The position numbers and the translations under genes are program-made. The notes beneath the pieces were generated by a model, which saw only the letters and a list, made by a program, of their open reading frames with translations, searched no databases and was not told the DNA's origin. Below, piece after piece: positions 32,572 to 36,035 of a stretch of DNA of 43,425 nt. Position 1 is the first letter of the stretch; every line of letters begins with the position of its first letter. The stretch spans positions 1 through 43,425 of the forward strand of contig JAILFT010000199.1 in the NCBI GenBank assembly GCA_024697425.1. The letters are read 5' to 3'. This stretch comes from Butyrivibrio sp. GTDB lineage: Bacteria; Bacillota; Clostridia; Lachnospirales; Lachnospiraceae.

Positions 32572-32629
32572 TAAGGACGGGGTTAGCGGGCCATATGCAT
32601 GGACCACTAACCCCGTCCCTTAGTTTTTT
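32572..32629. terminator. Long hairpin between convergent rho and PilZ genes; likely bidirectional terminator
   Basis: 12-bp perfect stem GGACGGGGTTAG (32575-32586) / CTAACCCCGTCC (32607-32618), further inner pairing, T-tract on + and T-rich on -. Confidence 0.8.
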
Positions 32630-33500
32630 ATACATCTCTCAGATCAAGAAGATTTTCTATTTCTTTGGCCTGTTTTGCCATCTTTTCATCTCTGCGCTGC
32701 TCACGAAGAGTTTTACCCGGCTGTGGTGATGAGGGGCCTGCCCCGGAAGATGAAGGAGTAATGGTGATGGTAGTGGGCTTTTCCGGAATGAGATCCTTGG
32801 CAAGATCTTCCTCCACTTCCATGATCTGCTGCTCCTGTGAAATATCGGGATTGAGTGAGGTTTCCGGAGCCTTGTCCAGCTCGGTCTGGGTTTCTTTTTT
32901 CTTGGAAGACAGAAGACCGATAAGGTCGACATTCAGGTTGGAAATGCTGCATCCTACCGCTTCCTTGCCCTGAACTTCAAATTTGCGGACAACCATGGTG
33001 GTTATCTCATAGTTATGTAGGGTGGCTCCGTATCTGAACATTACATTGAGAGTATCCCCTACCTTGAGCTTGGTTCCCCGCTCTAAGACAAGTGAGATGC
33101 CTCTCATGGAAATATCGTGAACAAGACAGTTCTTAAGATCCTGATTATTGCCGTTTATGGACATAAGACCAAGCTTTTCAATGTAAAAACGCTCGGCTTT
33201 TCTGGTGTTCTCAGGTTCAAGCTTTGAAGAACTGCGAATCAGGTGGAAATTGCCGTAACGGGTCTTGACCGGGGTGATGGTGGTGGCCATGAACTTATAG
33301 ACCCTGCCGTCCCGCTTGTTGCGGATCTCAACATTGGAGGGCTCCAGGAACTGCATGTATTTCCCGAAATATTCCATTGGTTTAACAAGAAGACCGGCTG
33401 ACACGCCGAAAATAGCCTCGGTCAGAAGAACGATACCGTGGTCATTGATTGAAGCATGGATCTTAACTTCGGAGCCGTTTGAAATATCGTTGACATTCAT
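32628..33500 (-). CDS. PilZ domain protein with YcgR-like N-terminal domain, predicted c-di-GMP receptor
   Basis: RxxxR (RKAER) and DISMRG (DxSxxG). Start at MNVNDISNGSEVK with RBS gggggag; the longer ORF to 34292 overlaps the YggS gene. Confidence 0.85.
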   Translation of the reverse strand: MNVNDISNGSEVKIHASINDHGIVLLTEAIFGVSAGLLVKPMEYFGKYMQFLEPSNVEIRNKRDGRVYKFMATTITPVKTRYGNFHLIRSSSKLEPENTRKAERFYIEKLGLMSINGNNQDLKNCLVHDISMRGISLVLERGTKLKVGDTLNVMFRYGATLHNYEITTMVVRKFEVQGKEAVGCSISNLNVDLIGLLSSKKKETQTELDKAPETSLNPDISQEQQIMEVEEDLAKDLIPEKPTTITITPSSSGAGPSSPQPGKTLREQRRDEKMAKQAKEIENLLDLRDV

Positions 33501-33515
33501 AAGATTTCTCCCCCG

Positions 33516-33543
33516 TTGCATGACTCTAAGTTTATGATATACT
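33516..33543 (+). promoter_or_regulatory. Sigma-A-like promoter for the YggS gene
   Basis: TTGCAT - 16 nt - TATACT. Confidence 0.45.
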
Positions 33544-33587
33544 ACAAAATAGAAAAAATCCAGATAATATCTGGAAGGAGAACACCC

Positions 33588-34286
33588 ATGATAAAAGAGA
33601 ATCTTGAATTTGTTGAGGAGAACATACTCCAGGCCTGTGAAAAGGCAGGCAGGGACAGGTCTGAGGTGACACTCATTGCTGTCAGCAAGACGAAACCGGT
33701 GAGCGATATTCGAAAGGCCATGGAATGCGGCATAAGGACCTTTGGCGAGAATAAGGTCCAGGAGATCAAGGATAAGACAGAGGAGATCACAGAGCCTCTT
33801 AACTGGCATATGATAGGACATCTGCAGGCCAATAAGGTCAAATATCTTCCGGGAAGGGTCTGTATGATCCATTCCGTGGATAACAGAAAGCTGGCAGATG
33901 AAATAGAGAAACAGTTCGCCAAAACGGATACCGTTATAGATGTCCTTATAGAAGTGAATATGGCGGCAGAGGACACCAAGTTTGGTATTACTCCCGAGGA
34001 AACACCGGATTTCGTAAAAGAGATAAGCACTCTTCCTCATTTGAACATAAGAGGGCTTATGACGATTGCGCCTTATACTGAAGATCCGGAGAGCAACAGA
34101 GTCTTTTTCCGGGGGCTTAGAGAACTGAAGAACAAAATAAACGGGATGGGTATACCCAATGTCAACATGGACACGCTTTCCATGGGAATGACGGGAGACT
34201 ATCAGGTGGCAATAGAAGAGGGAGCGACTTTCGTAAGAGTCGGTACCGGTATTTTCGGAGAGAGGGATTATTCTAAAGTACAGTAG
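33588..34286 (+). CDS. YggS family PLP-binding protein
   Basis: LIAVSKTKPVSDI, FGENKVQEIKDK, WHMIGHLQANKVKYL, HSVDNRKLADEI, GMTGDYQVAIEEGATFVRVGTGIFG; RBS ggaaggag. Confidence 0.95.
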   Translation: MIKENLEFVEENILQACEKAGRDRSEVTLIAVSKTKPVSDIRKAMECGIRTFGENKVQEIKDKTEEITEPLNWHMIGHLQANKVKYLPGRVCMIHSVDNRKLADEIEKQFAKTDTVIDVLIEVNMAAEDTKFGITPEETPDFVKEISTLPHLNIRGLMTIAPYTEDPESNRVFFRGLRELKNKINGMGIPNVNMDTLSMGMTGDYQVAIEEGATFVRVGTGIFGERDYSKVQ

Positions 34287-34327
34287 TTCCAAAATCTTAA
34301 ATAAATATAAACGAATTTACACTAAAA

Positions 34328-34377
34328 AAGCCAGATAGTATAATAAATTTATACTGTTTGGCTTATCTGTTTTTTTC
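34328..34377 (+). terminator. Rho-independent terminator after the YggS gene
   Basis: AAGCCAGATAGTATAA / TTATACTGTTTGGCTT fully paired with two G-T wobbles, then a T run after a short gap. Confidence 0.6.
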
Positions 34378-34392
34378 ATGGGAAGGGGATTC

Positions 34393-34665
34393 ATGTTAAA
34401 AACTGTACCCTTATCTAAAAACCTATCCTTGGATCAGCTGAATCACCTGATCGACACAGGTCATGTATTTGTGACGCCCTTTGGGCTCAACAGGACCTGC
34501 TATATTGTGGTGAACCATAAGCCGTTTATGGTCATCGCCACTGACGTGTCTGTGAGGGGAGTGCAGCTTTCGGGTTCATGGTATACCTGGGAAGAAGTGG
34601 AAGCCATGGGCGGTGTTTATGATTCGGAATTTGAAGCTTTAAAGGCTATTGCCGGCGGAGCTTGA
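34393..34665 (+). CDS. Hypothetical protein (90 aa)
   Basis: RBS ggaagggg, ATG at 34393, MLKTVPLSKNLSLDQLNHLIDTGHVF... Confidence 0.65.
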   Translation: MLKTVPLSKNLSLDQLNHLIDTGHVFVTPFGLNRTCYIVVNHKPFMVIATDVSVRGVQLSGSWYTWEEVEAMGGVYDSEFEALKAIAGGA

Positions 34666-34695
34666 CATAAAGCTATTCTTTTGGAGGTCGCTACT

Positions 34696-35847
34696 TTGAG
34701 CTATGCTTTTTACTATATCCAGGCACATATAGCCTGTATCTGTCTTCTGTGTATCATCATGCTGAAGATCAGAAAGAGTATTAACAAGGAATTGTCCCTT
34801 GTGTGCCTTGGAAATCTTGTGGTTATTCTGGCACTTTACTTTGTGGCAGAAATATTCTGGGCGCTGGTAGACAGTAATACCATAGAGTCAACCAGGTCAA
34901 TGCTGTATCTGTCGAATATATTCACTTATATTTTTATAACTCTTGCGGCTTACTACTGGTTTGTTGTGTCCGAGGCGATACAGCGGGACAAATATATTGA
35001 AAATATCACTACCAGGCGTCTTATAGGTACGCCTGTGCTTGTTTCTGCAGTCCTTTGTATTACTGCCTTCAGGACAGGGCTTGTTTTTTATGTGGATGAG
35101 AACAATGTACTTAACGGCGGAAGATTTTATGTGGTACTGGTGATCGTGCCCTTTGGTTATCTTCTGGCAGCATCTGCCAAGGCTTTTCACAGATATCTCA
35201 ACAAGGACCGCTATGCCGACAGGGGAATCTATTTCATGATAGGTATTTTCCCCATCGCTCCTATTATCCTTGGTATATTGCAGGCTATGTACTGGAGAAT
35301 TCCGTTCCTTTGCTACGGTGCCACCGCAGCTGTTTTATACGTGTACATGACCTATATGGAGAACCTTGTTTCCATCGATCCTCTTACACAGACCAATAAC
35401 AGGAATCAGATGTATAAGTATCTGATCACCAAGATGAAGCATGAGGAACCGGGAATGTCTCTTTTCCTTATCATGGTGGATGTGAACAGCCTGAGAGTTA
35501 TAAATGATACCTATGGCCATGCTGAGGGAGACAGGGCTCTTAACAGAGTTTCAAATGCCATCAAGGAAGCCTGCCAGGGAACCCGCAGCAGGATGTTTGT
35601 TTCCAGATACGGCGGAGATGAATTCGTTATAGTTGCGGAGATGGGATACAGAGCAGAAGCAGCCTGGCTTGTGGATCAGATCAGGACTAATTTAAAAAGA
35701 GCTACCGAAGTGGACGGAGCTTCTTATGATATCACAGTAAGTGTGGGCATTTCCCAGTACGACTATCAGGCACCTGTTTCAATACAGGCATTTATTGCCA
35801 GAGCAGATTCAGATCTTTATCAGAACAAAAAACTCAATGTCGGTTAA
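34696..35847 (+). CDS. Multi-TM GGDEF diguanylate cyclase
   Basis: About seven hydrophobic segments; IDPLTQTNNRNQ, VDVNSLRVINDTYGHAEGD, SRYGGDEFVIV; TTG start after ggaggt. Confidence 0.9.
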   Translation: MSYAFYYIQAHIACICLLCIIMLKIRKSINKELSLVCLGNLVVILALYFVAEIFWALVDSNTIESTRSMLYLSNIFTYIFITLAAYYWFVVSEAIQRDKYIENITTRRLIGTPVLVSAVLCITAFRTGLVFYVDENNVLNGGRFYVVLVIVPFGYLLAASAKAFHRYLNKDRYADRGIYFMIGIFPIAPIILGILQAMYWRIPFLCYGATAAVLYVYMTYMENLVSIDPLTQTNNRNQMYKYLITKMKHEEPGMSLFLIMVDVNSLRVINDTYGHAEGDRALNRVSNAIKEACQGTRSRMFVSRYGGDEFVIVAEMGYRAEAAWLVDQIRTNLKRATEVDGASYDITVSVGISQYDYQAPVSIQAFIARADSDLYQNKKLNVG

Positions 35848-35859
35848 AACATTGAGTTT
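35830..35859 (-). terminator. Intrinsic terminator for the small minus-strand ORF, overlapping the end of the GGDEF gene
   Basis: Perfect 11-bp stem AAACTCAATGT / ACATTGAGTTT; the minus strand continues TTTTTTG-type. Confidence 0.65.
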
Positions 35860-35936
35860 ATTGCGCCGATCAGAAGACCGGCCAGTATGAATGCGGCCAG
35901 AATGGCTATCGCATATATAAATTTCATTCTTCCCAT
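35844..35936 (-). CDS. Unannotated 30-aa single-TM protein MGRMKFIYAIAILAAFILAGLLIGAINSMF
   Basis: Strong SD aaaggaggag on the minus strand, ATG at 35936, one hydrophobic helix, terminator hairpin at stop; below ORF-track cutoff. Confidence 0.65.
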   Translation of the reverse strand: MGRMKFIYAIAILAAFILAGLLIGAINSMF

Positions 35937-35972
35937 GCCGCTCCTCCTTTGTTTACGGGCTCTAAACTGTGC

Positions 35973-35986
35973 TATACTATAGTATA
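35973..35986. promoter_or_regulatory. 14-bp palindrome TATACTATAGTATA in divergent intergenic region
   Basis: Perfect palindrome giving a TATACT -10-like hexamer on each strand. Confidence 0.4.
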
Positions 35987-36035
35987 TCCGTATTTTTTCA
36001 ATTAGCAAGCGGAGCAGTATCAGGGGGATAAGTGT

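Follow-up and report, generated by a model that had tools for sequence, protein, structure and literature searches.

A conserved 30-codon gene for a predicted membrane microprotein beside a GH120 gene in Butyrivibrio

Prli42, a stressosome miniprotein of the Firmicutes, is about 31 aa long and combines a basic N-terminus with a single helix. Small single-helix membrane proteins of bacteria typically bind a larger protein of the membrane and act through it (PMC7267776, PMC6813294). In work on bidirectional promoters, basal activity did not suffice for competition between polymerases unless one of the two sides was strongly activated (PMC12825309). Here we describe a short gene from Butyrivibrio sp. 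that resembles the first of these systems in size and predicted topology and that adjoins a candidate promoter region of the last kind. The window is a stretch of 43,425 nt (contig JAILFT010000199.1 of assembly GCA_024697425.1), in which the initial annotation had proposed a complete gene for a 30-aa membrane protein, possibly a regulator or stress peptide, antisense to the region between a GGDEF gene and a GH120 gene.

Coding status and predicted topology of the 30-codon gene

The proposed Shine-Dalgarno sequence (aaaggaggag), start at 35936 and stop at 35844 were all confirmed on the minus strand, where 30 sense codons run from an ATG at 35936-35934 to a TAA at 35846-35844 (Table 1). The CDS lies between the stop of the GGDEF gene (35847) and the start of the GH120 gene (36036), and its stop codon overlaps that of the GGDEF gene, so that the two CDSs have 4 nt in common (35844-35847).

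Table 1. Features of the peptide locus and its neighbors in the window
Feature	Position	Strand	Remarks
Membrane GGDEF (diguanylate cyclase-like) gene	34681..35847	+	Convergent with peptide gene
Terminator-like hairpin, possibly bidirectional	35830..35859	-	Covers peptide and GGDEF stop codons
30-aa micropeptide CDS, MGRMKFIYAIAILAAFILAGLLIGAINSMF	35844..35936	-	ATG to TAA; homologues in 53/79 genus genomes; pN/pS 0.27
Shine-Dalgarno aaaggaggag	35941..35950	-	Ends 4 nt before peptide ATG; SD-like motif at 46/48 homologues
Putative GH120 extended -10, TGCTATACT	35970-35978	+	Overlaps palindromic region
Palindromic TATACTATAGTATA, putative shared -10 region of divergent promoters	35973..35986	.	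Recurs in many relatives as TATAATTATA
Putative peptide -10, TATACT	35986-35981	-	Within palindromic region
Candidate peptide -35, TTGCTA	36003..36008	-	16-nt spacer; consensus match only
GH120 beta-xylosidase-like gene, 911 aa	36036..38771	+	No evident signal peptide; D370 and E407 align with D382/E405 of XylC; C-terminal domain at aa ~740-911
GH120 C-terminal domain (CTD), ~170 aa	38255-38768	+	Conserved; no Pfam match

A six-frame search of 194 relatives recovered full-length matches in ~46 genomes of the same genus, with identity down to 45%, and no credible match to the peptide outside Butyrivibrio. Across the 79 genus genomes, a profile of 44 members gave 49 clear matches and a wider profile gave 53; among 397 genomes spanning the family, strong profile scores came from two genus members only, and no non-genus peptide was recovered, the other matches being weak and mostly pieces of longer ORFs. 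The outcome that would have told against the gene, in which the flanking genes are kept and the peptide is not, is contradicted by its retention across ~53 species; a cultured strain among the carriers is B. hungatei DSM 14810.

Among 46 distinct 90-nt homologues, synonymous positions are almost saturated (mean pS 0.76) whereas mean pN is 0.21, and entropy by codon position is 0.74/0.38/1.44. Frame 0 is free of stops in 48/48 homologues and frame +1 contains at least one in 48/48; the 30-aa forms are exactly 30 codons long, save two members of 31 aa. Because the CDS is overlapped in the window at its last 4 nt only, the constraint acts on the peptide itself. The low pN relative to pS and the open frame 0 place it among small proteins encoded by sORFs of ~50 codons or fewer and kept by protein-level selection. 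On these comparisons the ORF is almost certainly a genuine protein-coding gene, and conservation, pN versus pS, and the openness of frame 0 strongly support the proposal of a complete gene, with its own ribosome-binding site, for a small membrane protein.

The members conform to the consensus M[GA]RMK[FY]IYAIAILAAFILAGLLIxxIxSLF, in which M1 and A9 never vary and R3, K5, Y8, I12, G20, and F30 hardly ever do. An 18- to 20-residue hydrophobic stretch (F6-I25) preceded by R3/K5 points to a single-pass membrane protein with one predicted helix at about residues 6 to 25, whose N-terminus should be cytoplasmic (N-in) under the positive-inside rule because R3 and K5 lie at the N-terminus. Positions 9, 11, 14, 15, 19, and 20 carry small residues in 89 to 100% of members, producing a conserved small-xxx-small-xxx-small face (A11-x3-A/G15-x3-A19, then G20) of a kind that is typical of packed membrane helices; this face would be suited to packing on another helix.

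Searches of the 44 members against Pfam and NCBIfam returned no family above cutoff, and no account of the peptide turned up in a literature search on its sequence motif and on small proteins of Butyrivibrio; it apparently represents an undescribed family that belongs to none of the named families tested. Matches to DUF4244 (21/44 members, best E 0.0013) were dismissed as noise, with the window member at E 0.052 and 13.4 bits, where the curated cutoff is 27. For KdpF, CydX, AcrZ, and MgrB there was one KdpF match at E 0.088 and none above cutoff, and the neighbors are GH120 and GGDEF genes rather than a cognate operon. Rfam returned nothing credible, as exemplified by mir-891 at E 0.31, whose 22 bits fall well short of the cutoff (90).

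The hairpin at the stop codon has the perfect 11-bp stem that had been reported (12 with a G-T pair), folds at -17 kcal/mol (z -5.3), and was matched in stability by 0/200 shuffles. The TTTTTT run said to follow it fared less well, as half lies within the stem and only TTT follows (tail TTTGTTCTGA). We rate the peptide terminator as moderate because the T-run is half buried and no more than 3 of the stem's pairs are G-C. The hairpin folds at -13.8 kcal/mol on the plus strand and could also serve the GGDEF gene; neither its sequence nor its position is kept in relatives. The reported overlap of the peptide stop and terminator with the GGDEF 3' end is present in the window, where 4 nt of CDS are shared, but the suggested convergent interference finds no support as a selected feature: the 3' ends are often 100 to 500 nt apart in relatives, and G068 and G058 carry both genes on one strand. 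We therefore rejected antisense or convergent interference, since the overlap is not kept in relatives.

Linkage to the GH120 gene and the putative divergent promoter region

The neighboring GH120 protein aligned with XylC (3VST) at E 8e-141, with the catalytic Asp and Glu (D382 and E405 in XylC) kept. Its CTD occurs as one copy in 71/79 genus genomes and also in one other sampled family genome, where no peptide was found near the CTD gene; the predicted structure of this domain is poor (AlphaFold pLDDT 41). The CTD further occurs joined to different N-terminal parts, in G044 (L125, 478 aa) and, outside the genus, in G388 (L136 3076-3870, 265 aa), as well as on truncated GH120 proteins in L123 and L124 (444-476 aa), which together suggest that the CTD has a role apart from catalysis. 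B. hungatei MB2003 encodes GH120 enzymes of 861 aa (xyl120A) and 664 aa (xyl120B) (PMC5716241), sizes consistent with a long CTD form and a short paralogue. One relative has an in-frame TGA inside its GH120 gene (G031:C23:17191-19872), reflecting a broken copy or an assembly error.

The peptide lies within ~0.35 kb of the single GH120-CTD gene in 49/53 genomes. Arrangements counted by hand from listed coordinates were divergent in 45/53, as in the window, and tandem in 4/53, with the peptide 3-17 nt upstream on the same strand in an operon-like layout. The tandem members, from four basal genomes (G033, G037, G048, G051), are 26-27-aa forms such as MKFEPVACLLVIAGFVIAGILVHLFL, whose homology is judged from a short, hydrophobic sequence; that of G037 reached E = 0.0099 with the 30-aa profile alone, yet is exactly at the GH120-CTD locus. 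As exceptions, the peptide is beside a dinB-like gene in G041 and G061, is 4.2 kb from GH120-CTD in G057, and is present in G053, a genome without GH120-CTD. In the last, the homologue (L078, about 2001-2096) appears to be followed closely, in the same orientation, by a histidine-phosphatase-like gene. A clade of about 12 genomes keeps GH120-CTD with the peptide undetected, and inspection by eye found no diverged peptide upstream of GH120 in these relatives.

In a tree of GH120 N-termini, divergent peptide loci form a large clade with few outliers, ten loci lacking the peptide form a clade, and the tandem forms group together, although long branches make the deep order unsure and leave gain versus loss unsettled. 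The peptide and the CTD are both essentially limited to Butyrivibrio. That the linkage occurs in two different arrangements argues for function rather than inherited synteny alone. The clade that lacks the peptide, together with the four genomes in which it is unlinked, shows that any partnership of the peptide with GH120-CTD is neither obligate nor exclusive.

The two divergent genes appear to share a control region, with candidate -10 elements that overlap and can be read both ways at the palindrome and in relatives. On the peptide side, relatives carry near-consensus TTGACC-17-TATAAT or TTGTAT-17-TATAAT, overlapping a GH120-strand extended -10, and 34/48 loci have such an extended -10 no more than 150 nt from the start codon of the peptide, versus 7.7% of shuffles. 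Because basal activity of bidirectional promoters is so low (PMC12825309), mutual exclusion of peptide and GH120 transcription is not to be assumed.

We tentatively favor a reading in which the peptide is a genuine N-in single-pass microprotein, with a promoter overlapping that of GH120, that is accessory to the cytosolic GH120-CTD protein. The peptide gene would have a promoter of its own with a -10 shared in part with the divergent GH120 promoter, and both might thus fire from one control region. In the membrane it may recruit or tune the GH120-CTD protein, perhaps as a membrane adaptor; an alternative target would be a membrane partner, e.g., a sugar importer of the same pathway. Membrane location, shared expression, and physical partnership are each points that we infer; so is the passage from genomic linkage to contact, and from there to recruitment or tuning. 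We favor the GH120-CTD partnership because the linkage persists in both arrangements and because peptide and CTD are alike in being narrowly distributed. The earlier suggestion of a small membrane regulator is thus plausible, yet the neighbor that the peptide tracks best is the GH120-CTD gene; we found nothing in support of a stress peptide.

Other candidate roles of the peptide

The peptide might instead regulate the adjacent membrane GGDEF protein by helix contact with its N-terminal membrane domain, as part of a c-di-GMP module to which GH120 is a mere neighbor. We regard this as unlikely, and it stays alive because of the same-strand placement in G068 and G058, where the peptide relative is ~200 nt upstream of the GGDEF gene; that of G058 (MKNIDFKYAFIMFIAIILGALFTSLFFKIIF; L137 897-992, plus strand) has an SD-like motif and belongs to a genome with no detected GH120-CTD. 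A GGDEF gene is likewise adjacent in most peptide-bearing genomes, but G070 and G042 have the peptide with GH120 and this GGDEF not nearby, the tandem forms are directly before GH120, and GGDEF remains next to GH120 in the clade that lacks the peptide. A PilZ-domain gene at 32628-34292 (minus strand) is close to the membrane GGDEF gene in the window, a possible c-di-GMP module beside GH120, and a conserved ORF of ~100 aa (LDQLNHLIDTGHVFVTPFGLNRTCYIVVNHKPFMVI...) is located between the two at about 34348-34662 (plus strand), in an order kept in relatives.

If the peptide acted like SgrT, MgtR, or AcrZ on a membrane protein encoded elsewhere (e.g., a sugar transporter), its locus would be a matter of co-regulation with xylo-oligosaccharide use. 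The persistence of the peptide at unrelated loci in G041, G061, and G053 is in keeping with this idea, as is the common modulation of larger membrane proteins by small single-helix proteins encoded elsewhere (PMC7267776, PMC6813294). However, the 49/53 linkage to GH120-CTD exceeds what co-regulation requires and no candidate partner was identified, and we consider it doubtful that a distant protein is the target.

A type I toxin-like hydrophobic peptide (Fst/Ldr/TisB-like), checked by an antisense RNA that might arise from GGDEF read-through or an opposing promoter, is improbable. The size and hydrophobicity of the peptide would suit such a toxin, a candidate plus-strand promoter opposes the peptide 5' UTR, and 2/44 members weakly match Pfam Fst_toxin (best E 0.031); these matches are below cutoff, though, no Rfam antitoxin RNA was found, and the peptide is a single-copy gene at a conserved metabolic locus across species.

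We give almost no credence to a regulatory uORF, leader peptide, or chance ORF without functional product, for although the peptide immediately precedes GH120 in the same orientation in four genomes, it cannot be a GH120 leader in cis in the 45 genomes where it is divergent, and its strong amino-acid-level purifying selection and fixed length refute the idea for this majority.

Comparison with described systems

Returning to the GH120-CTD partnership, its most extended form would be a genus-specific two-part system in which the microprotein recruits or controls a cytosolic carbohydrate-active enzyme via the CTD, placing intracellular xylo-oligosaccharide breakdown at the membrane under one bidirectional promoter; this fuller version strikes us as rather unlikely. 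Control of GH120-CTD by the peptide, if it occurs, would be unusual in that the target of a membrane microprotein would be a glycosidase of the cytosol. Our findings add a conserved and apparently undescribed microprotein family, with a candidate partner, to a rumen genus that is important in ruminant plant-fiber breakdown. Because the 93-nt gene is below usual annotation cutoffs, the peptide may be absent from the models used to study Butyrivibrio.

The putative control region recalls the pseudo-symmetrical bidirectional promoters of Warman et al. (PMC12825309), in that divergent genes are separated by a palindrome with a candidate -10 that can be read in either direction; it differs in that it flanks a microprotein gene and a GH120 gene. 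The peptide itself is like Prli42 in coming from the Firmicutes and in its ~30-aa length, basic N-terminus, and single predicted helix, but none of the 44 members matched Prli42 in an hmmscan against NCBIfam (E<=10). Like AcrZ, MgtS, MgtR, KdpF, and CydX, it is of the often unannotated kind that has at most 50 aa, one hydrophobic helix, and its own Shine-Dalgarno sequence. It differs from these proteins in having no above-cutoff match, in its restriction to one genus, and in being linked to the gene of a cytosolic glycosidase, not to an operon for a pump or transporter.
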